Positions 5,164 to 21,767 of a stretch of 25,599 nt of DNA are shown here, piece after piece (the first letter of the stretch is position 1; every line of letters begins with the position of its first letter). The stretch spans positions 1 to 25,599 of IMG/VR virus record IMGVR_UViG_3300006919_000391; one strand, written 5' to 3'. The DNA comes from a virus. The notes beneath the pieces are model-generated. The model was not told the DNA's origin, made no database searches, and saw nothing but the letters and a program-made list of their open reading frames with translations. The translations under genes were made by a program, and so were the position numbers.

Positions 5164-5194
5164 AAAACCCCCCTCGCTGGGCAGCCGAGGGGGG
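5162..5194 (-). terminator. Intrinsic terminator of the leftward recombination operon
   Basis: A 9-bp perfect stem (CCCCCCTCG at 5168-5176 with CGAGGGGGG at 5186-5194) and a 9-base loop. Read leftward it is followed at once by six T, the standard rho-independent arrangement. It ends transcripts of the gene finishing at 5222. Read rightward there is no T run, so it is less likely to stop the giant gene's transcript. A second, weaker hairpin (TAATCC 5202-5207 with GGATTA 5219-5224) overlaps the stop codon of the leftward gene. Confidence 0.85.
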
Positions 5195-5221
5195 CAGGAG
5201 GTAATCCAGTTCTAGGGTGGA

Positions 5222-5527
5222 TTAGAACGGGATATCGTCATTAGCAACGGTGGAGGGAGCCGCTGCCTGACTTGACGAGGAGTCTTGTTTAACGACCTTG
5301 ACCTCGACGCGACCAGAGTAGTCGCATCTCTTTTCTCCATTGTCATCTGGCTTCTCTTGCCAGAGGCCAGCCTTGTAGGCTTTGCCGTTCAGTGTGAAGA
5401 ATACCGAGCCAACTGGCTGGGTGGTATTGGGGTCATTCTTGTCAAACTTGTCATTCTTGTAGAAGCGACAGTAAACACCTTTACCGTTCTCTTCGACTTT
5501 TTCGTAAGTGGGTTTGTCACTCGCCAT
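5222..5527 (-). CDS. DUF736-like small protein with SSB-type acidic tail
   Basis: 101 residues. The core (RFYKNDKFDKND, GSVFFTLNGKAYKAGLW, then YSGRVEVKVV) has the spacing of small phage DUF736-like proteins, which look like a compact beta fold. The last residues are NDDIPF, the acidic-aromatic tail by which single-stranded DNA-binding proteins recruit partners, after a Ser/Ala-rich linker. Placed directly after ERF, it is most likely the phage's single-strand-binding protein or an accessory to it; the function is inferred from tail and context. The start is set by AAAGGAGG seven bases upstream. The gene overlaps the end of ERF by 11 bases and is last in the operon, just before the terminator. 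Confidence 0.75.
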   Translation of the reverse strand: MASDKPTYEKVEENGKGVYCRFYKNDKFDKNDPNTTQPVGSVFFTLNGKAYKAGLWQEKPDDNGEKRCDYSGRVEVKVVKQDSSSSQAAAPSTVANDDIPF

Positions 5528-6239
5528 TTTGGGCCTCCTTTAACTTGCCCTGTTCTGTAAGTCTACCCCAAACCTGCGTGGCTTGCTGGGTATTGAGGTC
5601 TTGCAACGATGCGACCCCGTAAAATTTCTTGACCCGATCAGCCCAGCCATCTTCCCCGCCGGCAACCGCGTAGGCTTCAAATGCCCGGATCATGTCCCCC
5701 AGAGGACGGGTCGGTGCCGGTGGTACATCCAGTCCCGCCGCCTTATTAGGCACCGTCCCCGCCTCTGGCGGAAGGCTGTCCACTTCAAACTGCTCGCCCC
5801 GTGGGATCAGGAGCAGGTCACGAAGTGCGTAGTTGAGAAGAGTTGTCTGTGCTGCCAGTGCAGCCTTGCTCAAATCACCACGTCCAGCAATTGGCAACTG
5901 CTTGTTGAAGCACCGTGTCTGTCCGCTGTCAGGGTGGCTGAGTTGATACTCCGCATCCATGACAAGGTGTTCGGTGCCGCTGTTGATGATAGTGATTGAT
6001 GTCTGAGAGAACACCAGTCCGTTACGCCGAAGCACTGGGCCGGCGTGAGCAAGTTGCTGCTCCGCTGAGACGTAGTCGTACTTCTGGTGGCTGTTGCGTC
6101 CGTCCTTGGCTACGCCGCCGACTTCTGCTTGAGCCTTCAGGAGGGCTTCATCCAAGCGGGCGGTTCCATCAGAACGATCCCCCCCGGTCCCCGATCCCAC
6201 TTGTCCTCCATCGTACAATCCAAAACTTTCTTGAGCCAT
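5517..6239 (-). CDS. erf: ERF family single-strand annealing recombinase
   Basis: 240 residues. ERF proteins anneal complementary single strands in phage recombination and genome circularisation. Visible signatures are VAKDGRNSHQKYDYVSAEQ, the conserved entry of the family (K-N-x-x-x-K-Y-x-Y-V-S), and later GRGDLSKAALAAQTTLLNYALRDLL followed by IPRGEQFEVD, matching the family's A-x-T-x-x-x-YA-x-R-L motif. A long low-complexity N-terminus (residues 1-35) precedes the domain. I chose the ATG at 6239 because a perfect AGGAGGT lies seven bases upstream; a GTG at 6248 is in frame but badly placed. The start lies 103 bases inside the exonuclease gene, so the two are translationally coupled, as expected for an exonuclease/annealase pair. 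Confidence 0.9.
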   Translation of the reverse strand: MAQESFGLYDGGQVGSGTGGDRSDGTARLDEALLKAQAEVGGVAKDGRNSHQKYDYVSAEQQLAHAGPVLRRNGLVFSQTSITIINSGTEHLVMDAEYQLSHPDSGQTRCFNKQLPIAGRGDLSKAALAAQTTLLNYALRDLLLIPRGEQFEVDSLPPEAGTVPNKAAGLDVPPAPTRPLGDMIRAFEAYAVAGGEDGWADRVKKFYGVASLQDLNTQQATQVWGRLTEQGKLKEAQNGE

Positions 6240-6973
6240 AGTTCGCACCTCCTAGTTGCGAGTTCAATCCATTCTTGAGACACCTCAACCACCGTAACTC
6301 CGTACGGTGCAGTGTTCTCGACAAAAACCATAATCACTTGTTGAATCGGGTTGCCACAGGCTTTGAGTCCTGCGGCGTAGAACGCCATCTGAGCGTCGTA
6401 GTGGAACGAAGACAGGCGGTGACGCACCGTGTTCAGGTTCACGTCTGCACTGGTCTTGAGATCCACCAGCAAGCCTTCGCCGTGGGCATCAATCTTGCCT
6501 TTGCACAACGCACCTGCTTCGTCTTCGCCCCAGTTCCAGAGAGCCATCTGCTCACGCTTGGGAGCAGCAGCCAACACGTTGCTGGCGTGTGGACATTTGG
6601 CGACCGAGTCTGCGATGTACTGGGCAGTGTCAAACTCGTCCTTGGTGATTACCACCTTGTTTGCGTTGACACGCTCAAACTCTGCGATCTCTTCTTTGCC
6701 GGCTTTGGTGCGACGGTTGACCGAGGGAGCCACAGCCACATCCATGTCGAATGTATCTGGGGTAAGCACGATGCTGTGGACCGCAGTCCCCAGACGCATG
6801 CTGGTGGTGGGTGTGTGCTTTGCGGTGAGTTGGTGCTGGTAGTGCAGCGGCGACTGTGCAATGGCTTTCAGCGTGGAGAAGTTGATGCCAGCATGCTGCC
6901 GGTACACCGTTTCCGGTAGGTCGTGCAGCATTCCTGCGGTAAGTTCAGTGGGTGGCGTAGTCGGTTGACTCAT
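6137..6973 (-). CDS. RecE-type PD-(D/E)XK 5'-3' exonuclease (DUF3799-like)
   Basis: 278 residues. The N-terminus (MLHDLPETVYRQHAGINFST then LKAIAQSPLHY) is typical of RecE C-terminal/YqaJ-like phage exonucleases: a short D-Y-H-x-x-x-x-S-x-S-x-L-K segment before LGTAVHSIVL. The catalytic signature is GKIDAHGEGLLVDLKTSADV (D in KID, then D-L-K as the (D/E)XK pair). A later YDAQMAFYAAGL contains the conserved Q-x-x-x-Y. The C-terminal LMEPPAWMKPS matches the usual PPAW ending. It resects duplex ends for the ERF annealase encoded next. The start at 6973 is supported by GGAAGGGA a few bases upstream; a longer frame exists but lies inside the preceding gene, which this start overlaps by 29 bases. 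Confidence 0.88.
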   Translation of the reverse strand: MSQPTTPPTELTAGMLHDLPETVYRQHAGINFSTLKAIAQSPLHYQHQLTAKHTPTTSMRLGTAVHSIVLTPDTFDMDVAVAPSVNRRTKAGKEEIAEFERVNANKVVITKDEFDTAQYIADSVAKCPHASNVLAAAPKREQMALWNWGEDEAGALCKGKIDAHGEGLLVDLKTSADVNLNTVRHRLSSFHYDAQMAFYAAGLKACGNPIQQVIMVFVENTAPYGVTVVEVSQEWIELATRRCELWLKKVLDCTMEDKWDRGPGGIVLMEPPAWMKPS

Positions 6974-7471: not shown

Positions 7472-7499
7472 GTTACATTGCAGGGGTGATTGAAATCAA
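7472..7499 (-). promoter_or_regulatory. Candidate leftward promoter for the recombination operon
   Basis: Read leftward: TTGATT (plus 7494-7499), 16 bases, TGTAAC (plus 7472-7477), about 18 bases before the ATG at 7454. Four of six bases match the bacterial consensus in each box. It overlaps the first codons of the divergent RusA gene. Weak, by eye only. Confidence 0.3.
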
Positions 7500-7938
7500 A
7501 ATTATTGTGCCTGAGCAAGCCATCCCTCAGCCACGGCCCCGTGCCCGAAGGTTGGGCAACAGGGTACAGGTCTATGTCCCCAAGGGGAAGTCAGCCTCGT
7601 ACCGCAAAGCCATCAAGGCGGCGGTGGAGGAGCAGTGTCCCGGTCTGGTCATTGATGGACTCTGCGGGATGGACATCGAGTTTGCCATGCGGATGACCAC
7701 CAAGAACAAGAAGGCCATGCATGGCACGCCACACCTGCGGCGACCCGACATCGACAACATGCTGAAGACAACACTGGATGGACTTGTTGACTCAGGCTTG
7801 TTGACAGACGATTCAATTGTTGCATCGCTGTTTGCCAAGAAGCGTTGGTGCCGCGAGGGGGAGGCGGCAGCAACTTACATCCTGATCGAGTATGAAAATC
7901 CCGAAGGGGAGGAGACCTCCCCTCCGGGCACTCACTAG
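7486..7938 (+). CDS. rusA: RusA-like Holliday junction resolvase
   Basis: 150 residues from a GTG at 7486, close to the 120-150 residues usual for the family. RusA cuts four-way junctions symmetrically as a dimer with three aspartates. All can be seen: RRPDIDNMLKTTLDGL holds D88 and D90, and LLTDDSIV holds D108/D109. The N-terminal PQPRPRARR and the YRKAIKAAVEE helix are also typical. A longer open frame upstream lacks family resemblance, so the GTG is preferred even though its ribosome binding site is poor. It is the only rightward gene between leftward neighbours and starts 31 bases from the divergent ATG at 7454. It complements the exonuclease/ERF/SSB-like set as the junction-resolving or debranching enzyme before packaging. 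Confidence 0.88.
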   Translation: MIEIKIIVPEQAIPQPRPRARRLGNRVQVYVPKGKSASYRKAIKAAVEEQCPGLVIDGLCGMDIEFAMRMTTKNKKAMHGTPHLRRPDIDNMLKTTLDGLVDSGLLTDDSIVASLFAKKRWCREGEAAATYILIEYENPEGEETSPPGTH

Positions 7939-7943
7939 GAACC

Positions 7944-7960
7944 GAGCGGGACAACCGCTC
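7944..7960. terminator. Hairpin between convergent rusA and zincin genes
   Basis: GAGCGG (7944-7949) pairs with CCGCTC (7955-7960) around a 5-base loop, in the 30-base gap between two convergent stop codons. No T run follows on either strand, so it is at best a weak terminator or mRNA end-protecting hairpin. Confidence 0.4.
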
Positions 7961-9758: not shown

Positions 9759-9915
9759 TTGGTTCTCCGTGAGTGAAAGCCCCCCGCCAGCAGGAACGTC
9801 CAAACTGGCGAGGGGGTGCGAAAGTTGTTGAGTTGTCGCCCGAAGGCAAATGGTGGAGGCCGCTAAGGGGGAGATGCATGCCTCCACCGGAGGGTGGATT
9901 TGCAATCTAGCGAGA
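9759..9915 (-). promoter_or_regulatory. Structured leader with two GC-rich hairpins
   Basis: A 157-base gap after the lysozyme gene. Hairpin 1: GGTGGAGGC (9852-9860) with GCCTCCACC (9880-9888), a perfect 9-bp stem with a 19-base loop. Hairpin 2: CCCCCGCCAG (9781-9790) with CTGGCG-A-GGGGG (9805-9816), about 10 bp with one bulge, only some 20 bases before the next start codon. Neither is followed by a T run leftward. Hairpin 2 is in the position of the repeated leader hairpins found further right and may control entry to the gene at 9758. Confidence 0.55.
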
Positions 9916-10338
9916 CTAGTTACAGTCCGCAAGTGCTTCTTTGGTTTTTTCCCAATACTGTTGGGTCGCTTCGATACGCCAGTGACCACGCGGACCACCG
10001 TTGTGCATGCGGGCTTTCATCTCGTTCCAAGACATGCCGGCAGGCTTGCGGTCTTCGCGGGCGTAACGCTTCATGAAGCCACGCATGGTCAGCACTGCAT
10101 GCTCCAAGTCATCAACCATGTGGTATGGAAACTTGACACCTGAGTCTCGGTGATAAGCCTCAGATATTTGCAGGGGACCGCGTGACATGAACCGCTTGCG
10201 ACGTGGGCACCAGTCACCAAGGATTGGTTTGTCGCCCGTGAGTTTCTTGCCTGACTCAACTTGCCAGATGGCACATTCCAAGTCAGTCAATTTGAAATCG
10301 GCAACGAGGCCGAATGATAGTAAAAGGGTTGTGAGCAT
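9916..10338 (-). CDS. Invertebrate-type (destabilase-like) lysozyme, probable endolysin
   Basis: 140 residues. It fits the i-type lysozyme pattern: CAIWQVESGKK corresponds to the C-I-C-x-x-E-S-G-C region with the catalytic Glu (E28); D36 or D42 lies where the catalytic Asp is expected; then RGPLQISEAYHRDSG matches C-G-P-x-Q-I-x-x-x-Y-W-x-D-C-G; and RMHNGGPRG matches the highly conserved A-R-x-H-N-G-G-P-x-G. Most structural cysteines of animal homologues are absent. The N-terminus MLTTLLLSFGLVADF is hydrophobic and could be a short signal or anchor. It would hydrolyse peptidoglycan at lysis. GAGG lies seven bases before the ATG. It is encoded alone in the early block, far from any candidate holin. 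Confidence 0.75.
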   Translation of the reverse strand: MLTTLLLSFGLVADFKLTDLECAIWQVESGKKLTGDKPILGDWCPRRKRFMSRGPLQISEAYHRDSGVKFPYHMVDDLEHAVLTMRGFMKRYAREDRKPAGMSWNEMKARMHNGGPRGHWRIEATQQYWEKTKEALADCN

Positions 10339-11171: not shown

Positions 11172-11258
11172 TTGAGATTCCTTTGTGAGTTGAAGTTAGT
11201 AGATAGACCAGAGTCGGTCAGTCGCCCCCCCGCAGGGGGGCTGGTGTCTGACTGTGGA
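11172..11258 (-). promoter_or_regulatory. Repeated leader cassette, copy 1
   Basis: Leftward order: stop codon plus TGATCCACAGTC (11250-11261), a perfect 7-bp GC hairpin with TGCG loop (11224-11241), the element GACTCTGGTCTATCTACT, then AACTCACAAAGGAATC and the ATG at 11171. The loop is a UNCG-type tetraloop in RNA. A second copy with the same order lies at 13324-13409. No T run follows the hairpin. Confidence 0.65.
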
Positions 11259-11897
11259 TCAGGATGACTTGGTGGTAGCACCGAACCAACTGGCTGGCTT
11301 CGGCACGATCTGATGGGCGAGCGACCGAATGTCGGTGAGACTTGCCAAGCGGTAGCCTCGCCAAGCACCTGAAGCAGGTTCAAGGGCTTGGTTGCACTCG
11401 ATGCTTTCAAGACGATAGAAGAAGCAGTCACGAGGATCGCAAGCCATGCCTGACTCTTCTGGGAATTGCACCCACACGCCTTGGTTCTTTGGGCCACACA
11501 CCGTCTTCACGACTGTGCCCTCCACGCCCTCACGCACGCCATCGGCATTGAGTTCAAAGCCTTTGTGCGTTGGGCAGTAAGTGTCCCTATTCCCACTTGC
11601 CGCAAGCCCTCGGCTGCGGGCGATCACAGTTTGACCGGGAAAGAAGTTTCTTAGCCGTGCCTTGTTCCACTTGGCTCGCATCTTTTTGTCGATGGCACGG
11701 GCTTTCATGTCGATGTCGGCTTCTTCTCTGCGGTGCAGTGCCATGCGTTCAATCTCGATCTGACGCTTACGTTTGCTCAGTTCAAGCAGCGACTGTTGCA
11801 TGTCTCGGATTTCCGCGTAGTTATGCACTTCGTTCTTGGATGGGTTGAGAAGTCGTTTGGTGCTGTGGATCAGTGTCCACTTGGTGTAGTCACTCAT
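11259..11897 (-). CDS. Hypothetical protein with N-terminal coiled coil
   Basis: 212 residues. Residues about 28-75 (IRDMQQSLLELSKRKRQIEI then RMALHRREEADIDMKARAID) form a strongly charged coiled coil. The C-terminal half is globular, with FFPGQTVIARSRG and EGTVVKTVCGPKNQGVWVQF looking like an SH3-like or KOW-like beta barrel (G-x-x-V...G-x-V-x...V-x-V-x-F). That could bind nucleic acid or protein; the resemblance is loose. The start follows AGGAG in the recurring CACAGGAGATTCACC context. Single-gene unit between two repeated leaders. Confidence 0.65.
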   Translation of the reverse strand: MSDYTKWTLIHSTKRLLNPSKNEVHNYAEIRDMQQSLLELSKRKRQIEIERMALHRREEADIDMKARAIDKKMRAKWNKARLRNFFPGQTVIARSRGLAASGNRDTYCPTHKGFELNADGVREGVEGTVVKTVCGPKNQGVWVQFPEESGMACDPRDCFFYRLESIECNQALEPASGAWRGYRLASLTDIRSLAHQIVPKPASWFGATTKSS

Positions 11898-11992
11898 GGT
11901 GAATCTCCTGTGAGTTAGGGTGAGTAGATAAGCAGCAGGGCTGCCCAGTCCGCCCCCTCCGTGGAGGGGACAGGTGGGGAGTCGTGCGGAGG
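11898..11992 (-). promoter_or_regulatory. Repeated leader cassette, copy 2
   Basis: Contains CCCCTC (11954-11959) paired with GAGGGG (11964-11969) around a CACG loop (leftward strand), then CTGCTTATCTACTCACC and AACTCACAGGAGATTCACC before the ATG at 11897. Shares CTTATC-A/T-ACTCACC and the ribosome binding context with the cassette at 13324-13409. Confidence 0.6.
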
Positions 11993-13015
11993 TCAGCCGA
12001 CGAGGACGGCCTCCTTCTTCTTGGGCAGGTGAGCCTTGCAGGTTTCGTTCCAGACCTTGCCCTTCAGGTCATTGCCGGTGCCCAGCAGGCGGGAGAAGGT
12101 GCGGTTGGTGGAGTCCTCAGACTCGCCGCGTACGGTGCGGTGGTGGTCAGCCCACTCGGTCACAGCGTTGAAGGCGGCCCATGCGGAACGCTCCATGCCG
12201 TTGGCCGTGCGGCCCTGAGCGAGCGACATCCACTGGCTGATGGTGTCCATTGCCATCGACGCAGACTTCTTCTCGCCCTTGGTCTTGGGATCGACGATGA
12301 CCTTGCCGATGTGACGGTTGTAAAGGTTGGTGAGGAACAACTCCAAGTCGCCTTGGGACAACTCGACGTTGGCAAGTGCCTCAGCCTTCACAGCGAAGAC
12401 GTTGTGGTTGTTCATGGTCCCTGCGAAGAAGTCAGCCGCATCGGCAGCAGCACGCTGATCGATGGTGGCGGTGTGACGCAGGCTTGCAACCTTGCCGGTT
12501 GCCATCGCAGCATCGTGAGTGTTCTTGCAGACAACCCGAATGTTGGTGTCGCAAAGTTTGAGGCCCATCGATCCGTCGTGTGACGTGGTGAACATGGCGT
12601 ACTGGGCCAGTTCATCGACTGCCCCGCGTGCCTCGATTGCAGTGCGACCAAGGTCAACCAGCATGGCGATGAGCCGTCCGCCACGCATGGTCAGGGCTGA
12701 CTCGACAAACTTGGACTTGCCACATGCCTGCTCGACGAACGCAGCAAACTCGCTGTTCTGGAACGGCTTGTAGGTTGGGCTGACATAGCCCAGCACGGAG
12801 TCGGTGTCCTTGCGAACGACGGCGTTGTGACCGCACTCGACAATCTTGCCATCGGCAGTCTTGCGAAGCAGGGTTTGCGACTCGACTTCCCAATCCATCA
12901 CACGCTTGAATGCATCGTGTGCGGTGGTGTGTTCAGGGAGGACAGTGCCAAGGCCGTGCCATGCGGCAGTCTTGGCAAAGACGGCGTTATCAGTAGAGGT
13001 GATTTCGTGAGACAT
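11993..13015 (-). CDS. DUF932 family protein (phage/plasmid-like TIGR03299 type)
   Basis: 340 residues, usual length for the family. The N-terminus (FAKTAAWHGLGTVLPEHTTA then AHDAFKRVMDWEVE) is the family hallmark, followed by VLGYVSPTYKPFQNSEFAAF and LTMRGGRLIAMLVDLG. DUF932 proteins are common in phages and plasmids, near recombination or replication genes; the biochemical role is unknown. The start at 13015 has AGGAAT upstream; a longer frame runs into the non-coding leader. A 6-bp hairpin (13037-13051) lies just before the ribosome binding site and might modulate translation. Confidence 0.88.
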   Translation of the reverse strand: MSHEITSTDNAVFAKTAAWHGLGTVLPEHTTAHDAFKRVMDWEVESQTLLRKTADGKIVECGHNAVVRKDTDSVLGYVSPTYKPFQNSEFAAFVEQACGKSKFVESALTMRGGRLIAMLVDLGRTAIEARGAVDELAQYAMFTTSHDGSMGLKLCDTNIRVVCKNTHDAAMATGKVASLRHTATIDQRAAADAADFFAGTMNNHNVFAVKAEALANVELSQGDLELFLTNLYNRHIGKVIVDPKTKGEKKSASMAMDTISQWMSLAQGRTANGMERSAWAAFNAVTEWADHHRTVRGESEDSTNRTFSRLLGTGNDLKGKVWNETCKAHLPKKKEAVLVG

Positions 13016-13137
13016 GGTGAGATTCCTAAAGGTTGGGGGCCAACGTGGCCCAGTTGATAAGTGAGTAATGTAGCAAGTCTGACTAGCAGTGCAAGCCAAT
13101 ACCCCCAGAATAATTTGGGGGTGATGGGATGCAGTGT
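13016..13137 (-). promoter_or_regulatory. Leader of the DUF932 gene with promoter-like boxes and two hairpins
   Basis: Hairpin A: ACCCCCA (13101-13107) with TGGGGGT (13116-13122), 8-base AT-rich loop. Downstream on the leftward strand TTGCAC, 16 bases, TACATT resembles a weak sigma70 promoter, followed by CACTTATCAACT, which shares TTATC-A-ACT with the repeated leaders. Hairpin B: GGGCCA (13037-13042) with TGGCCC (13046-13051), ending close to the ribosome binding site. Confidence 0.45.
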
Positions 13138-13323
13138 TCAGTCCATGGGCTTCACCTCGGAACGCGAGGTGCTGGTCAGCCCAGTGTTGATGATCAGTTG
13201 ACCGTCAGAGTCTTGGTCAACTGACCAGTATGGCCCCCGCCCAAACTTTTCCATCAACTCGCCTACTGCGATCATGAAGGATGCCATGGTGGGGGGAGTT
13301 GGTGTGGTGTCTTTGGTTTGCAT
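13138..13323 (-). CDS. Small hypothetical protein
   Basis: 61 residues. Polar Thr/Pro-rich N-terminus, a short helix (MASFMIAVGELMEKFG) and a C-terminal GPYWSVDQDSDGQLIINTGL that looks like a beta hairpin. No family recognised. The ATG follows AGGAG seven bases upstream, in the repeated leader context, which sets this start over a longer open frame through the cassette. Confidence 0.65.
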   Translation of the reverse strand: MQTKDTTPTPPTMASFMIAVGELMEKFGRGPYWSVDQDSDGQLIINTGLTSTSRSEVKPMD

Positions 13324-13409
13324 TGTGAATCTCCTGTGAGATGAGGTGAGTTGATAAGCCAGAGTCGGCAAATGGATGCCCCGCAGGGCACCCGATTGAG
13401 GACTGTGGA
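13324..13409 (-). promoter_or_regulatory. Repeated leader cassette, copy 3
   Basis: Leftward order: TGATCCACAGTC beginning at the upstream stop codon (13401-13412), hairpin GGGTGCCC/GGGCATCC with a TGCG loop (13374-13393), the element GACTCTGGCTTATCAACT, CTCACAGGAGATTCAC, then the ATG at 13323. Same order as the cassette at 11172-11258. The hairpin lies within a 26-base stretch that recurs exactly at 14186-14211. Confidence 0.7.
13371..13396. repeat. 26-bp perfect repeat, copy A
   Basis: A 26-base sequence beginning AATGGATGCCCC and ending GCACCCGAT is identical at 13371-13396 and 14186-14211, about 815 bases apart, both times between leftward genes. It encloses an 8-bp hairpin with one G-U pair and a TGCG (leftward strand) loop. 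Confidence 0.9.
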
Positions 13410-13823
13410 TCACATCCAAGACGGGCGAAAGTCACACTCGCCATACGGGTTCGCAAGATCGAAGTCAGCGAGTTCATCCTGCTTGGCTTTTGACTTCAAG
13501 ATCAGAAGTTGCAAGGGGTACGGATTAGCGTTTTGCTGCTTTCGGTATGTGCGAACCATGCTTCCGGCTTCTTTCACTTCGAGCATCAGATGGATGTATT
13601 CGGCAAAGTGATCTGGAGCGTCCCCCGCGATGCCTTCTTTGCCTTCGGTGAAGACGTGCCGCCATGTTCCGCTGTCGCCTTTGACCCAGCATTCAGCACC
13701 CGGAAATGTTGAAGACAGGCCAGCGGCAAGAATGTGAAGATCCGAGGTGGTGCAAAGCGTCTCGCGTTTGCCTTCATGGTTGATGAATTTGATTTTGTAG
13801 TTCATGGGATTAGTGGGAGTCAT
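13410..13823 (-). CDS. Hypothetical protein
   Basis: 137 residues; no family recognised. Starts with YKIKFINHEGKRETLCTTSD, a beta-hairpin-like segment, and later has HFAEYIHLMLEVKEAGSM, an amphipathic helix. The ATG overlaps the upstream stop (ATGA) and has GGAG seven bases before it in the form GGAGAATCCAA, close to the recurring ribosome binding context. Forms a two-gene unit with the upstream membrane protein. Confidence 0.65.
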   Translation of the reverse strand: MTPTNPMNYKIKFINHEGKRETLCTTSDLHILAAGLSSTFPGAECWVKGDSGTWRHVFTEGKEGIAGDAPDHFAEYIHLMLEVKEAGSMVRTYRKQQNANPYPLQLLILKSKAKQDELADFDLANPYGECDFRPSWM

Positions 13824-14137
13824 TTGGATTCTCCATTGCGAGTGATGGCCCGCTCGATGACGGGGATGAGGGTCATTGGAAGGATGCAGCCGAGAGCGAT
13901 GCCACCCACCATGGGCAGGATCGCAGGGTCGGTGACAGCACCGAGAACGTCAGAGACAAGGTTGCCGATGGCACCGCCGATGATGGCACCGAGGCCGGGG
14001 CGAGCGTACTTGCCAATCTTCTCGGCAAGCCATCCATCGAGTTCAAGGCCAAGGTAGGCACCGGCGATCAGAACGCCATTGTCAACAAGGCCGTAGAGCG
14101 TGCCTTCAGGAAGGCAGTTGGTGATGCAGTCAAACAT
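13820..14137 (-). CDS. Small glycine-rich membrane protein (possible holin)
   Basis: 105 residues with at least two membrane segments: about residues 16-34 (GLVDNGVLIAGAYLGLEL, weak), 47-70 (ARPGLGAIIGGAIGNLVSDVLG) and 73-92 (AILPMVGGIALGCILPMTLI). The GAIIGGAIG stretch is a glycine-zipper-like motif. Short polar C-terminus (ERAITRNGESK). Size and topology allow a holin acting with the lysozyme at 9916-10338, but nothing specific proves it. GGAG lies seven bases before the ATG. Confidence 0.65.
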   Translation of the reverse strand: MFDCITNCLPEGTLYGLVDNGVLIAGAYLGLELDGWLAEKIGKYARPGLGAIIGGAIGNLVSDVLGAVTDPAILPMVGGIALGCILPMTLIPVIERAITRNGESK

Positions 14138-14232
14138 GAGTTTTCTCCGTGAGTAGTGTGACTAGTTAGTGGGTCAGAGCAGACCAATGGATGCCCCGCA
14201 GGGCACCCGATGGAAGGCTGTGATGAGAGGGT
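14138..14232 (-). promoter_or_regulatory. Repeated leader cassette, copy 4
   Basis: Carries the second copy of the 26-base hairpin repeat (14186-14211), preceded by CATCACAGCC, a loose relative of the TCCACAGTC after other stops, and followed by CACTACTCACGGAGAAAACTC and the ATG at 14137. It lacks the CTTATC element of copies 2 and 3. Confidence 0.6.
14186..14211. repeat. 26-bp perfect repeat, copy B
   Basis: Identical to 13371-13396 over 26 bases; flanks diverge at once on both sides except for a nearby CTGTG on the right in both copies. See copy A for the hairpin. Confidence 0.9.
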
Positions 14233-14568
14233 TTAGGCGTGGCTGATTTTGACAGCCAGATGACCGCAGATGTCGAGCAGTCGTGCTTGGCATTTGAAGG
14301 CGAAAGCCACGTTCATGAATTGGATTTCGAGTTTGCTGTCCTCGTCGATGTCCAAGGTGTCAACTCGGTCAATGCCGTGCCATTGCCTTTCCATTGAGAT
14401 GTTGGTGATCAGGAGAGTGCCGTCCCATCCGCCGACATTCCGACCGGCATTGCTGATGGTGACCTTCTCGCTGTCGAGGTGCCCCGCGAAGTCGTGTTCT
14501 GCTTCATGCTTGATCAGCATGGTGACGGCTTTGACTGCTGCGGCTTCGTCTTTGTCGAATTGGTTCAT
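14233..14568 (-). CDS. Hypothetical protein, first gene of the leftward block
   Basis: 111 residues; no family recognised. N-terminal helix (DEAAAVKAVTMLIKHEAEHD), then a beta-rich half with WDGTLLITNISM and LEIQFMNVAFAFKCQARLLD. The last piece resembles part of the gene at 10393-10692. AGGAAT precedes the ATG seven bases upstream in the usual ACTCACAGGAATCTCACC context. An open frame extends far upstream but has no coding character. Confidence 0.65.
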   Translation of the reverse strand: MNQFDKDEAAAVKAVTMLIKHEAEHDFAGHLDSEKVTISNAGRNVGGWDGTLLITNISMERQWHGIDRVDTLDIDEDSKLEIQFMNVAFAFKCQARLLDICGHLAVKISHA

Positions 14569-14933
14569 GGTGAGATTCCTGTGAGTTGGAATGAGGTGAA
14601 GTAGACTGCTGCGATGTGCAGCGTTGTCAGAAGAGGTGGTGACCAGTGTCCCGGTCACCACCTGAAGGTTGGTGGTCTTGCTGACACTCCAACCGGCTGT
14701 TCTGCTCGGATCTGGATGGCACCAGTGGAGGGGACCACTGAGGTCAGCGAAGTGTTCATCCGACTGGAAGCAGAGAAGGATCGCCTCGGAGCAGCAGACT
14801 TGGCTGGTGCCGTGACTCAGAGAGTCGTACAGCCTGCTGGCCCTTGGACTGCCGGCGGTTGCATCGAGCATCCCCTGCGGTCTTCAGTCGGATTCAGTTG
14901 TCAAAGAAAGCGTCGCTCAACTGCGATGAGTGG
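14569..14933 (-). promoter_or_regulatory. Long non-coding leader of the leftward block
   Basis: About 365 bases with no gene I can support. It contains a perfect 10-bp hairpin (GGTGGTGACC 14635-14644 with GGTCACCACC 14653-14662, 8-base loop) and a 6-bp hairpin (CAGTGG 14723-14728 with CCACTG 14735-14740). It ends with the recurring AACTCACAGGAATCTCACC before the ATG at 14568. If transcription starts at the promoter near 14934, this is an unusually long 5' leader that could hold an antitermination or attenuation signal. Confidence 0.5.
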
Positions 14934-14962
14934 AATATGCCAAACATTCACCAGTGTTGCAA
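14934..14962 (-). promoter_or_regulatory. Candidate leftward promoter
   Basis: TTGCAA (14957-14962), 17 bases, CATATT read leftward (plus 14934-14939); four of six consensus bases in each box, optimal spacing. Lies in the only clearly AT-rich stretch between the divergent blocks. Confidence 0.4.
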
Positions 14963-14970
14963 GACATATT

Positions 14971-15000
14971 TCGACAAAGTTTGGACTTTTCTTCAATTAT
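14971..15000 (+). promoter_or_regulatory. Candidate rightward promoter for the packaging module
   Basis: TCGACA (14971-14976, five of six to TTGACA), 18 bases, AATTAT (14995-15000, four of six). Transcription would begin about 15007, some 35 bases before the preferred terL start. Lies eight bases from the divergent leftward candidate. Confidence 0.4.
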
Positions 15001-15040
15001 TTTTGAGAGGTGGCCTGAAGTGCTGCCAAAGCAGGGAGTT

Positions 15041-16981
15041 ATGAAGTTGGACGATGTAGAAGGAATGGCGAGCAATACTGGTATGAGCAGGGAACCGGAG
15101 GTCGCTCCGCTGGAATGGGCCGCTGGGAGGCTTGACTGCGGTGGTGGCCTCTCGGTGCCTTCCAACGTGGCTGAGTTGTCACGGTGGCGGTTGGCTCTCA
15201 GACAGGCAGTGAGAGATGGGGTGGTGGCTCCAGAGACAGAGCGTGCCCGATGTGCAAGGTCACTGCCGTACTGGGTGGCAGCACATGGATGGACATACCG
15301 GCTGCGGGAGGTCGGGGAGGATGGACGGACCAGATCAGTGGGAACCAGTGGTGATAGGTCAGGCGAGGTGGCAGCGACCGGGGGGGCGGGGGGTGGATCG
15401 CCGCCGTCGCCCGCGTCGTTAACAGTAACAACCCCCCACTACCCTTTTGCTCTGTATCCCATTCAGGTAACAACACTACAACGGCTAGTCAACGGTATTG
15501 ACACTGGGGCTGACGTGCTACTGGACAAGTCACGGGACATGGGCTGTTCGTGGCTAGGAGCCGCTCTGATGGCTTGGACGCTTCTCTTTGTCCCAGAGGC
15601 TCAGATGATCGTGGTAAGCCGTGTGGAGGATCTGGTGGACCGTAAGGGCGACCCTAGTACCGTCATGTGGAAGATCAGGTATTTGCTGCAACGATGCCCC
15701 GAATGGCTGAGTGGTATTGACCCTGCTCGCTTCGGTGAGGGTGGTGACTGCTCACGTCACTTGTCAATCGTGAACCCGATGAACGGTAGTACGATATTCG
15801 GGCAAGCATCCACTGGTCACGTTGGTCGTGGTGGCAGAACCCGCTTCATCGTCTTTGACGAGTATGCAGCATTTGAGAAAGCGGAATCGGCTTGGCAATC
15901 AGCGGCAGATACGACTGCGTGTCGGATTGCGATCTCGACCCCCCTCGGTCCTCAGACCCACTTCTCCAAACTCCGTATGCAAGGGATGGCTTCAGGCTCG
16001 CCGGAGGTAATAACCCTTGGTTACTGGGACCACCCTGAAAAGGGCAGGGGCAGGGAGTGGCGTTGCGACCACGATGGATCGGTTACCGGGACTGTGAACC
16101 GCTGGTACTGGTGGTCACCATGGTTTGACCGTGAGGTTGAGCGTCGTGCTGACCCTCTGGATGTTGCCCAGAACATTCTGATTGACCACGTTGGCTCTGG
16201 ACAGACGTTCTTCAACAGGCCGGCACTGGGGCAGCACATGCGGGAGCATGGCTTTGAACCACGTCGCTGCGAATGGAACGAACAGCAGCAACGCTGGGAA
16301 GACTACCCAGATGGTCGCTGGCGTGTCTGGGAGGCTGCTGGTAACAAGTCAACACCGCACTACGTCATGTTTGCTGACCCAGCCTATGGGTTAGGCCGTA
16401 ACAACTCAGCAGTGGCTGTAGTCAATGTAGACACAGCCAAGTTAGCAGCGATGTTTGTTGACCCGCATGTGACACCGTTCGAGTTGGCTGAGATGATGTC
16501 GATGGCGGGACGTGGTCCGTTCAGGGGCCGGTATGGTTCTGCTCTGATTGGTTGGGAGAACAACGGACCCGGTGGCAGCATGGGATCAGATTTGTGGAGA
16601 TTGGAATACCCAATGCTCTACCGCATGCGTGCCCAAGGACAAGACCATGACAAAGAAGGCCACACATTAGGGTGGACATCAACGCGGATGAGTAAGCGAC
16701 TGATGCTTTCCAACTTCCAGCGGTCACTGTTGCAGGGCGAATTCTTCTGTCCATGCAACAAGACTCTAGAGGAAGCCAGCGAGTATGTGTTGACCAGAGA
16801 CGGCGGCATTGAGTCACCAGAGGTTGCAGACCAGTCAGCAGGGGCGAGGCTTGCTCACGGTGACCGTGTGATCGCTACCGCAGGTGCAGTCATGCTGATG
16901 AATGAGTTTCCAGCGTTCCTTGACGAAGCGAGTGACTTCGCACCGGGAACGTACGGCAGCATGCTTGGGTGGGATACATGA
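15041..16981 (+). CDS. terL: Terminase large subunit (DNA-packaging ATPase/nuclease)
   Basis: 646 residues from the ATG at 15041. TerL pumps DNA into the prohead and cuts the concatemer. The N-terminal ATPase shows a Walker A-like LLDKSRDMGCSW (residues 160-171), equivalent to the K-x-R-Q-x-G-x-S motif of phage terminases, and Walker B with catalytic Glu in FIVFDEYAAF (D273, E274). A coupling-type STP follows (AISTPLG). The C-terminal RNase H-like nuclease begins at YVMFADPAYGLGRNNSAVAV with D446. I prefer 15041 because AGGGAG lies just upstream and residues before it look random; a GTG at 14930 would add 37 residues but overlaps the promoter candidates. The Pro/Gly-rich N-terminus (residues 1-125) is longer than usual. 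Confidence 0.93.
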   Translation: MKLDDVEGMASNTGMSREPEVAPLEWAAGRLDCGGGLSVPSNVAELSRWRLALRQAVRDGVVAPETERARCARSLPYWVAAHGWTYRLREVGEDGRTRSVGTSGDRSGEVAATGGAGGGSPPSPASLTVTTPHYPFALYPIQVTTLQRLVNGIDTGADVLLDKSRDMGCSWLGAALMAWTLLFVPEAQMIVVSRVEDLVDRKGDPSTVMWKIRYLLQRCPEWLSGIDPARFGEGGDCSRHLSIVNPMNGSTIFGQASTGHVGRGGRTRFIVFDEYAAFEKAESAWQSAADTTACRIAISTPLGPQTHFSKLRMQGMASGSPEVITLGYWDHPEKGRGREWRCDHDGSVTGTVNRWYWWSPWFDREVERRADPLDVAQNILIDHVGSGQTFFNRPALGQHMREHGFEPRRCEWNEQQQRWEDYPDGRWRVWEAAGNKSTPHYVMFADPAYGLGRNNSAVAVVNVDTAKLAAMFVDPHVTPFELAEMMSMAGRGPFRGRYGSALIGWENNGPGGSMGSDLWRLEYPMLYRMRAQGQDHDKEGHTLGWTSTRMSKRLMLSNFQRSLLQGEFFCPCNKTLEEASEYVLTRDGGIESPEVADQSAGARLAHGDRVIATAGAVMLMNEFPAFLDEASDFAPGTYGSMLGWDT

Positions 16982-18844: not shown

Positions 18845-19085
18845 ACATGAGGCCAGAATGGCTGGTCACCGCAATTATGCGTGTGAGTACCAGCGAGACC
18901 ACGCCAGTCCCCAAGCCAAGAAGGACAGGGCTGCTCGGAACAAGGCTCGTAGAGATATGGGCTTGAAGAAGGGCGACCCGCGAGAGGTTGATCACGTCAA
19001 ACCACTGTCCAAAGGCGGCAGTAACCGGCGTTCAAACCTGCGGGTTACGTCACGAACAGCCAACAGGAGGAAGGGTCGTGGGTAA
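18828..19085 (+). CDS. HNH endonuclease family protein
   Basis: 85 residues from a GTG. The C-terminal half carries the HNH core: VDHVKPLSKGG with H56, SNLRV with N70, and TANRRKG with N79 (an H-N-N variant). The N-terminal half is a highly basic linker (KKDRAARNKARRDMGLKKGD) usual for small phage HNH proteins of marine viruses. HNH proteins near terminase genes often assist cutting at packaging; it could also be a free-standing homing nuclease. AAGGA lies eight bases before the GTG, which is why I prefer it over an upstream ATG inside the previous frame. Confidence 0.82.
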   Translation: MSARRKHEARMAGHRNYACEYQRDHASPQAKKDRAARNKARRDMGLKKGDPREVDHVKPLSKGGSNRRSNLRVTSRTANRRKGRG

Positions 19086-19215
19086 GAAAGACGCTTGCTA
19101 CCACAAAGTGAAGAGAACCGCCAAAGTTTGGCCCTCCGCTTACGCCTCTGGGCGGCTTGTGCAGTGCCGGAAAGTAGGAGCAGCCAACTATGGCAAGAAA
19201 AAAAAGCGAAAGTAG
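19078..19215 (+). CDS. Small Cys/Lys-rich protein of the KDACYHKVK...VWPSAYASG family
   Basis: 45 residues from a GTG overlapping the HNH gene by 8 bases, with AGGAGG just upstream. The whole protein (KKDACYHKVKRTAKVWPSAY then ASGRLVQCRKVGAANYGKKK) is a family I recall from many marine viral genomes; its function is unknown. Two cysteines and a basic tail suggest a metal- or nucleic-acid-binding miniprotein. Confidence 0.8.
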   Translation: MGKKDACYHKVKRTAKVWPSAYASGRLVQCRKVGAANYGKKKKRK

Positions 19216-19420
19216 TGACAGTCTGCACCAGTGGTTCAAGCGAAACAAAGGAACCGGCTGGGTTGACTGTAAGACAGGCAAGAAGTGTGGTCGAAGCGGT
19301 AAAAAAGACTCAGGACGGCCCTACCCATACTGCCGTCCGACCATGGCTCAATGCAAATCCAAGGGTGCAAAGGCTGCTGCAAGGCGAAAATCTGGCCCCG
19401 GTCGCGTAAGAGCGAAGTAA
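19190..19420 (+). CDS. DUF5872-like small basic protein
   Basis: 76 residues. WFKRNKGTGWVDCKTGKKCG and PYPYCRPTMAQC match the DUF5872 pattern (G-W-V-D-C...C-G-R...P-x-C-R-P-T-x-x-x-C), with four conserved cysteines that may bind zinc. The C-terminus is strongly basic (RRKSGPGRVRAK). Overlaps the previous gene by 26 bases; AGGAG lies nine bases before the ATG. Confidence 0.82.
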   Translation: MARKKSESSDSLHQWFKRNKGTGWVDCKTGKKCGRSGKKDSGRPYPYCRPTMAQCKSKGAKAAARRKSGPGRVRAK

Positions 19421-19434
19421 GTTAGGACAACACC

Positions 19435-19542
19435 ATGAAAAACGGCAAGTGCAGAGAGCGATACAACAAGTTGTTCAAGACCAACGGCAAAAAAACGCCA
19501 GTGAAGAGGAATATCAGCCGTGACAACAAGAAGAAAGCGTAA
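19435..19542 (+). CDS. 35-residue polybasic miniprotein
   Basis: MKNGKCRERYNKLFKTNGKK and a further basic end (NISRDNKKKA); over a third of the residues are Lys or Arg. No family recognised. Real-gene evidence: AGGA seven bases before the ATG, position in the run of small basic genes, and a 23-base overlap with the next gene. Confidence 0.6.
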   Translation: MKNGKCRERYNKLFKTNGKKTPVKRNISRDNKKKA

Positions 19543-19813
19543 AAACGTATCGCTGTCGGTCAAGAAGGGTGAAAAAAGGCCGGCAAGTCAGGGTGCAGGG
19601 CTGACTGCAAGGGGAAGAGCCAAGTACAACCGTGCTACAGGCTCAAATTTGAAGGCTCCGCAGCCCGGAGGCGGTAAAAGACGCACCTCATACTGCAAAA
19701 GGTCTGCCGGCCAGATGAAAAAACACGGTATTAACTGTTCCAAGACACCCAAAAAGCGTATTTGTGCTGCCCGCAGGCGTTGGAATTGCAGTGGCAAGAC
19801 CAAGAGGGCGTAA
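19520..19813 (+). CDS. DUF6321-like basic protein
   Basis: 97 residues from a GTG. KKGEKRPASQGAGLTARGRA, then KYNRATGSNLKAPQP and GGGKRRTSYCKRSAGQM is the signature of DUF6321-like proteins of phages and large DNA viruses. A C-terminal extension has extra Cys and basic residues (CSKTPKKRICAARRRWNCSG). Function unknown; probably DNA-binding or a minor virion component. Its stop is directly followed by the next ATG. Confidence 0.82.
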   Translation: MTTRRKRKNVSLSVKKGEKRPASQGAGLTARGRAKYNRATGSNLKAPQPGGGKRRTSYCKRSAGQMKKHGINCSKTPKKRICAARRRWNCSGKTKRA

Positions 19814-20290
19814 ATGTTTGTTCGACAAATCTACTTAACAGCGTTGTTGGTGCTTTCAGGCTGTAAGACCCAAGGAGGATTCCAACTCCCTTTCGATCTG
19901 CCGGCGGCTACACCGCCGAACACGCAGAACGCTCTGATACTGGACAGTCTCAGCCCGTTTCGGTGGGCGGGGGCACTCTGCATGCTGTCGGGGGCACTTC
20001 TGCTGTTCATATCACAGGGCAGCAAGGGCTGGATTCCACTTCTGACGGGAGCGGGTCTGGTTCTGCTCAACACGCTTCTAGCACATACACTCAGCAGCAC
20101 CTACACGATCTGGTTGATCGTGGGTACAGTAATCGTGGCCCTGTTGATACTGGGTCTAGACCTTCAGGAGTTCAAGAAATGTCTTCGATACCGTTCTCTG
20201 ATGCGTTTGCGTCAATCCTCGTTGTCCTCTTATCTTTCCTCGCCGGAGCATGGATCGGACGAACAGTCCTCACCTTCCTCCGAAGCCTGA
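19814..20290 (+). CDS. Predicted lipoprotein with multiple membrane helices
   Basis: 158 residues. Lipoprotein signal peptide MFVRQIYLTALLVLSGCK with lipobox L14-S-G-C17. Further hydrophobic segments follow at about residues 51-67 (WAGALCMLSGALLLFIS), 72-94 (GWIPLLTGAGLVLLNTLLAH) and 97-118 (STYTIWLIVGTVIVALLILG). The C-terminus is Ser-rich. The mix of lipobox and three helices is unusual for an o-spanin; a holin-like or superinfection-exclusion role is possible but unproven. Its last 112 bases also encode the start of another membrane protein in a different frame. Confidence 0.7.
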   Translation: MFVRQIYLTALLVLSGCKTQGGFQLPFDLPAATPPNTQNALILDSLSPFRWAGALCMLSGALLLFISQGSKGWIPLLTGAGLVLLNTLLAHTLSSTYTIWLIVGTVIVALLILGLDLQEFKKCLRYRSLMRLRQSSLSSYLSSPEHGSDEQSSPSSEA

Positions 20291-20358
20291 TTCTGGGCAA
20301 GATCGGAGCATGCCCCGACTGTCCCAAGATCACGGATAGCAAGACTAAGGATTCTTGA
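20179..20358 (+). CDS. Small single-helix membrane protein overlapping the lipoprotein gene
   Basis: 59 residues from the ATG at 20179, with CAGGAG nine bases upstream. One membrane helix (ASILVVLLSFLAGAWIGRTV), then a basic amphipathic stretch and a C-x-x-C end (GACPDCPKITDSK). The open frame continues upstream but that part is low-complexity and inside the lipoprotein gene. With the overlapping lipoprotein it resembles the embedded architecture of Rz/Rz1 spanins with the order reversed. Its 3' part overlaps a leftward regulator gene. Confidence 0.6.
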   Translation: MSSIPFSDAFASILVVLLSFLAGAWIGRTVLTFLRSLILGKIGACPDCPKITDSKTKDS

Positions 20359-20523
20359 CGCGACAGCAGACACGGTCGCCGGCGGAAGCAACGGGTTGTT
20401 GTCTTCAGCCATGATTCGTAAGCGTCTGTAGTCTTCAACGTCAAGTCGAACACACACAGATGCTTTGCCAGATCGTGTCCGTACACCATCATTGGTGGTC
20501 GATGTATATTTGTCAGTGGTCAT
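20230..20523 (-). CDS. Ribbon-helix-helix (CopG/Arc-like) DNA-binding protein
   Basis: 97 residues. GKASVCVRLDVEDYRRLRIM gives the DNA-contacting strand plus first helix, and TVSAVASRILSLAIRDLG the second, the usual MetJ/Arc/CopG arrangement at residues about 19-66. The C-terminus is acidic and Cys-containing and lies antisense to the membrane-protein gene 20179-20358. There is no ribosome binding site; instead TATGAT sits six bases before the ATG, suggesting a leaderless transcript. Likely a repressor acting at the divergent promoter region next to it. Confidence 0.7.
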   Translation of the reverse strand: MTTDKYTSTTNDGVRTRSGKASVCVRLDVEDYRRLRIMAEDNNPLLPPATVSAVASRILSLAIRDLGTVGACSDLAQNQASEEGEDCSSDPCSGEER

Positions 20524-20541
20524 TTCTGAATCATAACTAGT
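20510..20541. promoter_or_regulatory. Overlapping divergent promoters and possible operator
   Basis: Leftward: -10 box TATGAT (plus 20530-20535) six bases before the regulator's ATG, so the A of ATG falls at the expected transcript start. Rightward: TTGTCA (20510-20515, five of six), 16 bases, CATAAC (20532-20537). The two -10 boxes overlap. An imperfect palindrome around ACTAGT (TAACTAGTAA, 20534-20543) could be the operator. Confidence 0.4.
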
Positions 20542-20571
20542 AAGCCCGATGTATGGGCAAAGGAGTCTCGA

Positions 20572-20751
20572 ATGAGTCGATTAAGTGGCGGTGGTTTTAA
20601 TATCGGTGGCAGTGGCGGAAGAATTAGCGGATCGGGCGGTGGTGCTAAAAAGCCGGCTCGTAAGCACGTTCGCAAGGGTGCATCATCTGCTCGCAAGACA
20701 GCACGTCCCGTTAAGAAGAGGGACGAGAAGCGGGGTAAGAAGAAGAAGTAA
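20572..20751 (+). CDS. Gly-rich/Lys-rich miniprotein
   Basis: 59 residues: a glycine-rich head (LSGGGFNIGGSGGRISGSGG) and a lysine/arginine tail ending KRDEKRGKKKK. An excellent AAAGGAG seven bases before the ATG shows it is translated. No family recognised; composition suggests DNA or RNA binding, like protamine- or histone-tail-like phage proteins. First gene after the divergent promoter region. Confidence 0.75.
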   Translation: MSRLSGGGFNIGGSGGRISGSGGGAKKPARKHVRKGASSARKTARPVKKRDEKRGKKKK

Positions 20752-20753
20752 TC

Positions 20754-21278
20754 TTGAAACTAGACAAAAACACACCCCACGATCTGATACGGCAAGAGAT
20801 CCGCAACTGGGTGGATCAGGTGCTGGACATTCCTTCAGACCACTTTAATGGTCTGTCGGCCTGCCCGTTTGCCAAGCCAGCCTTAGACAAAGGCAAGGTA
20901 GATATCCGCATCGGTGGGAAGCACACGGTCTGGGACACGGTTGATTACTTCCCCCCTGACCGTGATCTAGTGATTGTCTGCCCGATTTTTGCTGACAAGT
21001 GGCTTCCGGATTCAATCGAAAGTTTCTGTGAGCAACTGAACCGTGGTATCAAATCGGATGATCTGATAGCAATCCCTTTTATACCGGACATCGAAGGCGG
21101 CACTGAGCAGCCCGATGTAGAGTGTGAGAATTGGGATTACTTGATTGACGAGTCGTTTCCAATGATTTTTATTCAGCGGCTGTCTGAGTTGAAAGCAGCC
21201 TCCGCGAAGTTGCAGAAACGCGGGTATTACCTCAACGTCTCTAGCAAGTTTAGGGACTATGTAGAAAGCAGGGATTGA
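20754..21278 (+). CDS. DUF1415-like protein
   Basis: 174 residues from a probable TTG two bases after the previous stop. IRNWVDQVLD followed by NGLSACPFAKPALDKGKVDI resembles the DUF1415 entry motif (W-x-x-x-V-x-x-L-x-x-C-P-F-A-x-x). The rest is alpha/beta with DLVIVCPIFADKW and a C-terminal coiled helix. Related proteins occur in marine phages; function unknown. The rare start and lack of a strong ribosome binding site suggest coupling to the upstream miniprotein. Confidence 0.65.
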   Translation: MKLDKNTPHDLIRQEIRNWVDQVLDIPSDHFNGLSACPFAKPALDKGKVDIRIGGKHTVWDTVDYFPPDRDLVIVCPIFADKWLPDSIESFCEQLNRGIKSDDLIAIPFIPDIEGGTEQPDVECENWDYLIDESFPMIFIQRLSELKAASAKLQKRGYYLNVSSKFRDYVESRD

Positions 21279-21279
21279 T

Positions 21280-21408
21280 ATGGCAGGACGTGGCAAGAAG
21301 ATGGGCAAGAAGACCATGGTCAAGAAGGGCAATGGCGGCGGCTCTCCGGGCAAAAAGAAGAATGCCAACCGTCGTAAGCGTGGCGGGGGCATGGGCTACG
21401 GCGGCTGA
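21280..21408 (+). CDS. 42-residue Lys/Gly-rich miniprotein
   Basis: MAGRGKKMGKKTMVKKGNGG then a tail with KKKNANRRKRGGGMGYGG: about 40% basic, no acidic residue. Starts one base after the previous stop and ends by TGATG overlap with the next gene, so it sits in a coupled run. AAAGCAGGG lies upstream of the ATG. No family recognised; likely nucleic-acid binding by composition. Confidence 0.7.
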   Translation: MAGRGKKMGKKTMVKKGNGGGSPGKKKNANRRKRGGGMGYGG

Positions 21409-21767
21409 TGTCCAAGGTAGAACCGACAAGAGACCCACGGGGACGCTTTGTTCCCGGTGTGAGCGGCAACCCCTCTGGTAGATCTAAAGGGGCTGTCGGT
21501 CTCATGTCACGATTACGCTCAGTGCTTGCTGAAGAGGTCGCAGACGGGGTGACCCGTGCAGATGAAATGGTTGCCCTGATCCATCAGGCCATCCGTGAAG
21601 ACCCCGTCAAGGCATGGCCCATCCTGAAAGACTTTGTTGCACGGGATGAAGGCCCAGTGGAGCAAGTACACAAACTGCAAGTAGCCCAAGAGGAGCAGCG
21701 GCAGGCGGATCAAGAGGTGGATATCGCCCTTGAAGCGTACTTGCAGCGTCAGATGATCGATGATTGA
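21408..21767 (+). CDS. DUF5681-domain protein, possible small terminase subunit
   Basis: 119 residues. GRFVPGVSGNPSGRSKGAVG (residues about 12-31) is the DUF5681 signature (G-x-F-x-x-G-x-S-G-N-P-x-G-R-P/S-x-G), found in short phage proteins beside terminase or portal genes. The remainder is helical with a C-terminal coiled coil (VHKLQVAQEEQRQADQEVD). Its place just before the portal and the domain's usual company suggest a small terminase subunit that recognises DNA, but terL itself is 4.4 kb upstream. Confidence 0.72.
   Translation: MSKVEPTRDPRGRFVPGVSGNPSGRSKGAVGLMSRLRSVLAEEVADGVTRADEMVALIHQAIREDPVKAWPILKDFVARDEGPVEQVHKLQVAQEEQRQADQEVDIALEAYLQRQMIDD

Follow-up and report, generated by a model that had tools for sequence, protein, structure and literature searches.

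Structured intercistronic linkers beside exchanged genes in the leftward operon of a phage

The DNA analyzed here, referred to as the window, is the whole 25,599-nucleotide stretch of IMG/VR virus record IMGVR_UViG_3300006919_000391. Five gaps between early genes of its leftward operon are copies of one intercistronic linker and form one structural family. Each linker fills the gap between a stop codon and the start codon of the following gene and contains a predicted interrupted RNA hairpin, here called the rod, with a tetraloop (UGCG or a relative of it; the loop of one copy is longer), usually a single-stranded stretch with the motif TATC[A/T]ACT (the TATC box), and its own ribosome-binding site. 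The linkers are nearly constant between the window and a related contig, L003, while the genes that adjoin them differ, indicating they are conserved connectors around exchangeable genes. Both the structure and the gene exchange are well supported.

Layout and pairing of the linker family

An initial annotation of the window had described four gaps with hairpins as reiterated regulatory leader cassettes. The four gaps (c1 to c4; Table 1) are where it placed them, and a fifth linker, c5, precedes the DUF932 gene and has the longer loop. The concept of a reiterated cassette is supported by the single structural family, by covariation between the copies, and by conservation in the relative. The rods have one orientation and occur once per gap between 14.2 and 11.2 kb, always in the order stop codon, rod, ribosome-binding site. 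Pairwise blastn comparison of the copies gave E values down to 1e-8.

Folding revealed that the hairpin in c1, c3, and c4 is a single interrupted rod with up to 23 pairing positions and a UGCG loop. The common register consists of three pairs, a C.C mismatch, four pairs, two open positions, three pairs, two open positions, and eight pairs (seven in c1) next to the loop; one outer pair is missing in c4 alone and another in c1 alone. The initial annotation had noted a 12-base tag shared by c1 and c3 and the motif CTCTGG ahead of the TATC box in the same two copies. The tag, TGATCCACAGTC, indeed starts at the stop codon at 11250-11261 and 13401-13412 and has no other match with up to one mismatch (0.14 expected). 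CTCTGG is also found as described, and c4 has CTCTGA at the same place, without a TATC box. What had been overlooked, besides the fifth copy and the exchanged genes beside the linkers, is that the stop-tag (CCACAGTC; CCACAGUC) and the CTCTGG element (GACUCUGG) form the two sides of a single outer stem, which accounts for their traveling together. In both phages, the 212-aa gene has within its first codons a sequence close to the stop-tag (TGATCCACAG; 11860-11885, minus strand), which may be an exchange relic or due to chance.

The pairing is retained despite changes in sequence. Among c1, c3, and c4, 6 of 18 pairs are changed on both sides with pairing kept, one-sided changes are absent, and 94% of cells are paired. 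None of 500 shuffles reached this result, and slid versions of the rod paired at 35-46%. The inner arms are fully different between copies (GCCCCCC, GGGTGCCC, ACCCCCA, and CTGTCCCCTC), yet complementarity is always kept, which argues against a sequence-specific DNA operator. Permutation of the arm substitutions gave a P value of 0.004 for c3/c4 and no significance for the other pairs of copies; the three-copy count is the stronger test. Folding z-scores for c1 to c4 ranged from -2.1 to -4.1.

A covariance model built from c1, c3, and c4 and run unfiltered over the whole window returned c5 (E value of 2e-4) and c2 (0.0017) as the next sense-strand matches, with the following match at 0.67. Antisense matches were also obtained for c1, c3, and c4, as inverted repeats would be expected to give. 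The model search found no rod in the window outside the 14.2-11.2 kb interval, nor elsewhere in the L003 record. The curated covariance models of Rfam gave no match, neither at the gathering score nor at E values up to 1, and annotated phages contained no DNA match to the region or to one linker. A mobile element of the REP type was judged unlikely, given the few copies, the single orientation, and the invariable placement from stop codon to start codon.

The TATC box is present in the three gaps claimed for it and again in c5; the window contains five copies, all on the minus strand, four of them within linkers. The claim that nearly all leftward starts share CTCAC-A/GGAG at a 7-base spacing was overstated. 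Three starts have it exactly (CTCACAGGAG plus 7 bases at 13323 and 11897, CTCACGGAG plus 7 bases at 14137), variants are found at the starts at 14568, 11171, and 9758, and the sequence is missing from the DUF932 gene and from most of the genes that lie downstream of 9.7 kb. The core CTCAC[A/G]GGA belongs to three leftward starts and has four matches in the window versus 0.47 expected.

Conservation of the linkers and replacement of the genes between them

Relatives were sought among viral contigs with protein and profile queries (DUF932, TerL, capsid, and the 140-aa gene) and with four DNA patterns. L003 was the sole further contig found with the operon. The five linkers are identical in L003 at 485 of 504 columns (95-98% each), compared to 368 of 463 (79%) fourfold degenerate sites in five shared genes of the leftward block (Fisher test, 1e-16). 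Linker c4 matches L003:9015-9112 at 96 of 98 columns and c5 matches at 122 of 126, with the stop codon included in both counts, and c2 matches at 94 of 99. In c1, c3, and c4, all 50 bases of the rod are the same in L003 (c3 at L003:9489-9538; c1 at L003:11784-11833). The covariance model also found c2 in L003; c5 was not reported under faster filters, though its DNA is present. The initial annotation had proposed an alignment of the intergenic regions of this genome and its relatives with a covariance model; in the close form carried out here, the copies covary within the genome and the linkers are conserved in L003.

The whole L003 record contains no extra copies of c1, c3, or c4, and no linker was found in the capsid relatives L075-L080. 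Of the pattern matches L007-L074, L008 is the L003 contig itself; the others appear to be due to chance, with no linker in their surroundings. Genome contigs scanned for a host gave no match. The capsid-region relatives L075-L080 share 80-99% identity and occur in several other records, indicating the phage group is not rare.

In three of six intervals (c4-c3, c3-c5, and directly after c1) the window and L003 harbor unrelated genes. Similarity of the replaced genes to their L003 counterparts was not detectable (best blastp E value of 0.2; no tblastn match in the compared DNA). The homology breakpoints lie at stop or start codons or within about 10 bases of them. For example, homology ends at the ATG after c1; ahead of c5, it begins within or beside the stop codon. 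The c4-c3 interval contains two genes in the window and one in L003, and the first leftward gene, the DUF932 gene, and the 212-aa gene are kept in both phages.

Transcription signals and other features of the window

The window comprises a rightward block, encoding terminase, an SU10-type portal, capsid, and an LPD38 protein, and a leftward block from approximately 14.96 to 5.2 kb, encoding DUF932, an Erf-like annealing protein, and small genes. Gene order after the portal, not a family match, is the basis for the capsid label. The linkers adjoin the first genes of the leftward block.

Table 1. Linkers, genes, and candidate signals of the leftward block
Feature	Position	Strand	Details
Sigma-70-like candidate promoter, operon start	14934..14962	-	TTGCAA-17-CATATT; L003 TTGCAA-17-CATAGT
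13-bp hairpin AGGUGGUGACCGG/CUGGUCACCACCU	14626..14670	-	Leader of first leftward gene; outside rod family; z-score -4.81
Linker c4	14138..14232	-	Precedes 105-aa gene; rod core 14174-14223, UGCG loop; ribosome-binding site CTCACGGAG; contains CTAACTAGTC; no TATC box
Exchangeable gene, 105 aa	13820..14137	-	Glycine-rich, probably membrane protein; other gene in L003, no match
Exchangeable gene, 137 aa	13410..13823	-	Overlaps preceding gene; no linker in front
Linker c3	13324..13409	-	Precedes 61-aa gene; rod core 13359-13408; TATCAACT 13349-13356; ribosome-binding site CTCACAGGAG
Exchangeable gene, 61 aa	13138..13323	-	Unrelated 100-aa gene in L003
Linker c5	13016..13137	-	Precedes DUF932 gene; rod 13086-13137 by covariance model; TATCAACT 13052-13059; second hairpin GGGCC/GGCCC
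Sigma-70-like candidate promoter within c5	13067-13094	-	TTGCAC-16-TACATT; overlaps and follows rod
DUF932 gene	11993..13015	-	Both phages, 89% amino-acid identity
Linker c2	11898..11992	-	Between DUF932 and 212-aa genes; rod 11935-11987; 10-bp inner stem; loop CACG (UACG in L003); TATCTACT 11923-11930; ribosome-binding site CTCACAGGAG
212-aa gene	11259..11897	-	Both phages, 77%
Linker c1	11172..11258	-	Precedes 160-aa gene; rod core 11208-11257; TATCTACT 11198-11205; ribosome-binding site CTCACAAAGGAA
Exchangeable gene, 160 aa	10689..11171	-	Unrelated phrog_586 gene in L003
Sigma-70-like candidate promoter	9904-9932		
Erf-like single-strand annealing protein	5517..6248	-	phrog_155, E 8.9e-23; candidate driver of linker recombination

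Three sigma-70-like sites, all with counterparts in L003, were picked by eye and with a pattern built from them; a generic promoter scan does not list them, and they are regarded as candidates. A simple scan found no sigma-70 promoter in c1 to c4, with other promoter types outside its reach. In c5, the TATC box lies approximately 8 bases downstream of the sigma-70-like -10, near the expected 5' end of the transcript, and more likely belongs to the RNA leader than serves as a -10 box. TATCWACT was rejected as a sigma-70 -10 element in c1 to c4 since it lacks T at the last position; it may be read by an alternative sigma or a phage factor. Antitermination of the BoxA/boxB type was also rejected, with CTCT alone in common. 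A CTAGTC motif (minus strand) is found in c4 at 14160-14175 and in the spacers of two promoter-like sites (13075-13088 and 9910-9925), and is a possible operator.

No T run follows the rods of c1 to c5, and a terminator scan lists none of them, which bears out the earlier statement that the hairpins are not plain terminators. A canonical terminator with a stem and T6 closes the operon at 5165-5200 and has a counterpart in L003. The missing T runs after the rods are therefore not simply the habit of this phage.

A divergent control region at 14569-15041 separates the leftward operon from the terminase gene, which is read rightward. The leader of the operon extends approximately 360 bases ahead of the first gene and is strongly structured (z-score of -5.4 for 14569-14700). 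By eye, the hairpin at 14626..14670 has three changes compared to L003, with pairing kept in all, two via G-U, and such changes favor action in the sense RNA. The DUF932 leader (13016-13066, minus strand) can form mutually exclusive hairpins, GGGCC/GGCCC or GTTGG/CCAAC, a possible switch; one base differs in L003, near the ribosome-binding site. Elsewhere, the leftward block seems to be broken by a rightward open frame at 7490-7960, close to whose end lies a strong hairpin (CCCGGAGGGGAGG/CCTCCCCTTCGGG), and very small Lys/Arg-rich open frames run from terminase to portal at 18850-21410 (plus strand).

Possible function of the linkers and relation to known systems

The reading we favor, to which we give an even chance, is that the linkers are intercistronic RNA processing or stability hairpins with their own ribosome-binding site that also provide homology for gene replacement. 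A few host-type promoters would give a long mRNA of the leftward early operon, on which each rod would act to separate the cistrons. Separation would probably be endonucleolytic, either of the RNase III type or by a cut in the unpaired stretch after the rod, and the rod would protect the 3' end of the upstream RNA piece. The constant leader would supply a standard translation start to the next gene, whatever that gene is. Since the linkers are alike in both phages, they would also supply the homology by which a gene lying between two of them is replaced exactly, with help from the Erf-like annealing protein. We infer cleavage, protection, and Erf-driven exchange from the anatomy of the linkers and from known systems. 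The rods always sit between a stop codon and a ribosome-binding site, a position that speaks for the mRNA as their site of action. Among the options offered by the initial annotation, processing or stability appears to fit best, whereas promoters read by a phage factor have no positive support in c1 to c4.

Several observations weigh against this reading. Folding energy does not fix the strand; for c1 and c5, antisense folding is at least equally favorable. The covariation represents three distinct rows within a genome rather than a phylogeny, given that the rods of c1, c3, and c4 do not differ between the two genomes. The sequence of the loop and outer arms is conserved beyond the needs of pairing, and protein binding may be involved. 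The TATC box is missing from c4. Finally, the operon is present in two genomes only, the window and L003, and the conservation could alternatively stem from recent exchange of the linkers themselves.

In arrangement, the linkers are closest to the PeSL elements of T4-like phages and to the SAS/ESAS of cluster K mycobacteriophages; in shape, the rods are closest to the RNase III sites of T7. PeSLs combine a terminator with an early promoter. Accounts of them in T4-like phages, cited in PMC4503421, are Arbiol 2010 and Comeau 2014. Like PeSLs, the linkers are small repeated intergenic cassettes with a stem-loop ahead of expression signals; they lie between exchangeable early genes and are linked to modular shuffling. 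Unlike PeSLs, c1 to c4 have no U tract or recognizable promoter (c5 alone has a promoter candidate), and the stem is longer and interrupted. The phage is also not T4-like; it has an SU10-type portal and its relative is a 39.7 kb record.

SAS/ESAS are start-site repeats around the ribosome-binding site, approximately half with an inverted repeat just upstream (Pope 2011, PMC3203893). They occur in the non-structural half of the genes and are attached to different genes in different phages (PMC3203893). Several genes here likewise share a sequence at their ribosome-binding sites, but it is unrelated to that of SAS/ESAS: the 13-bp GGGATAGGAGCCC is absent from the start sites here, which read CTCACAGGAG or GGAATCTCACC. 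The ESAS repeats are stated not generally to support RNA pairing (PMC3203893), whereas the pairs here are preserved by double changes. The host here is also not known to be a mycobacterium.

The early mRNA of T7 carries several RNase III sites along its length. Like these sites, the rods are interrupted hairpins of approximately 50-60 bases, forming a dsRNA rod of about two turns, between early cistrons. The R1.1 site has an asymmetric 4/5 internal loop (PMC6121014), unlike the symmetric 2x2 loops, 1x1 mismatches, and tetraloop of the rods here, in which cleavage is presumed from anatomy.

The linkers may instead be terminator-plus-promoter cassettes of the PeSL kind, in which the rod would stop transcription, at least partly, and a promoter behind it would restart transcription for the next gene. 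The order of parts is the same (stop codon, stem-loop, promoter-like box, ribosome-binding site, exchanged gene), the tetraloop and GC stems resemble terminator hairpins, and c5 has a sigma-70-like promoter that overlaps and follows the rod. However, no rod is followed by a U tract in a phage that has a T6 terminator elsewhere, c1 to c4 have no sigma-70 promoter in the simple scan, and the position of the TATC box in c5, downstream of the -10, makes it probably not a -10 itself. This explanation seems rather unlikely. We regard as clearly unlikely that the linkers are attenuators or translational control elements, in which a phage or host protein would bind the rod and leader to set expression of the downstream gene. 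The loop, the C.C and C.A mismatches, and the outer arms are indeed conserved beyond pairing needs, and a start-site sequence is common to several genes, but the rods lie approximately 36 bases upstream of the start, the ribosome-binding site is uncovered in the predicted folds, and no alternative terminator fold was found in c1 to c4.

Slightly less probable again is a function at the level of DNA, as imperfect inverted repeats for a DNA-binding protein (an operator or anchoring site, as suggested for cluster K ESAS) or as pure recombination sites. The single orientation and the restriction to the early region are as in ESAS (PMC3203893), the antisense strand folds equally well, and the linkers clearly mark the boundaries of exchange. 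Against a DNA-level function, the inner arms vary between copies with complementarity retained, and the constant placement from stop codon to ribosome-binding site points to mRNA.

Along with the preferred processing or stability function, a broader proposal is put forward tentatively, as possible but with the chances against it: the linkers may constitute a new structured RNA family of universal couplings. Any gene between two copies would be expressed at once, with its mRNA cut free and protected and its translation start supplied, and the operon would be a rack of interchangeable slots kept by the annealing protein.

Small genes are exchanged very rapidly in the early regions of phages, and how a newcomer comes to be expressed at once can seldom be seen. 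Here the connector is directly visible, as a hairpin conserved to the base while the adjoining genes are replaced. The idea behind PeSL and SAS/ESAS is thereby extended to an unrelated phage group with a different, probably RNA-level element. Recently exchanged phage genes are often counter-defense or host-takeover genes, and the linker provides a sequence tag for finding such recently exchanged genes.

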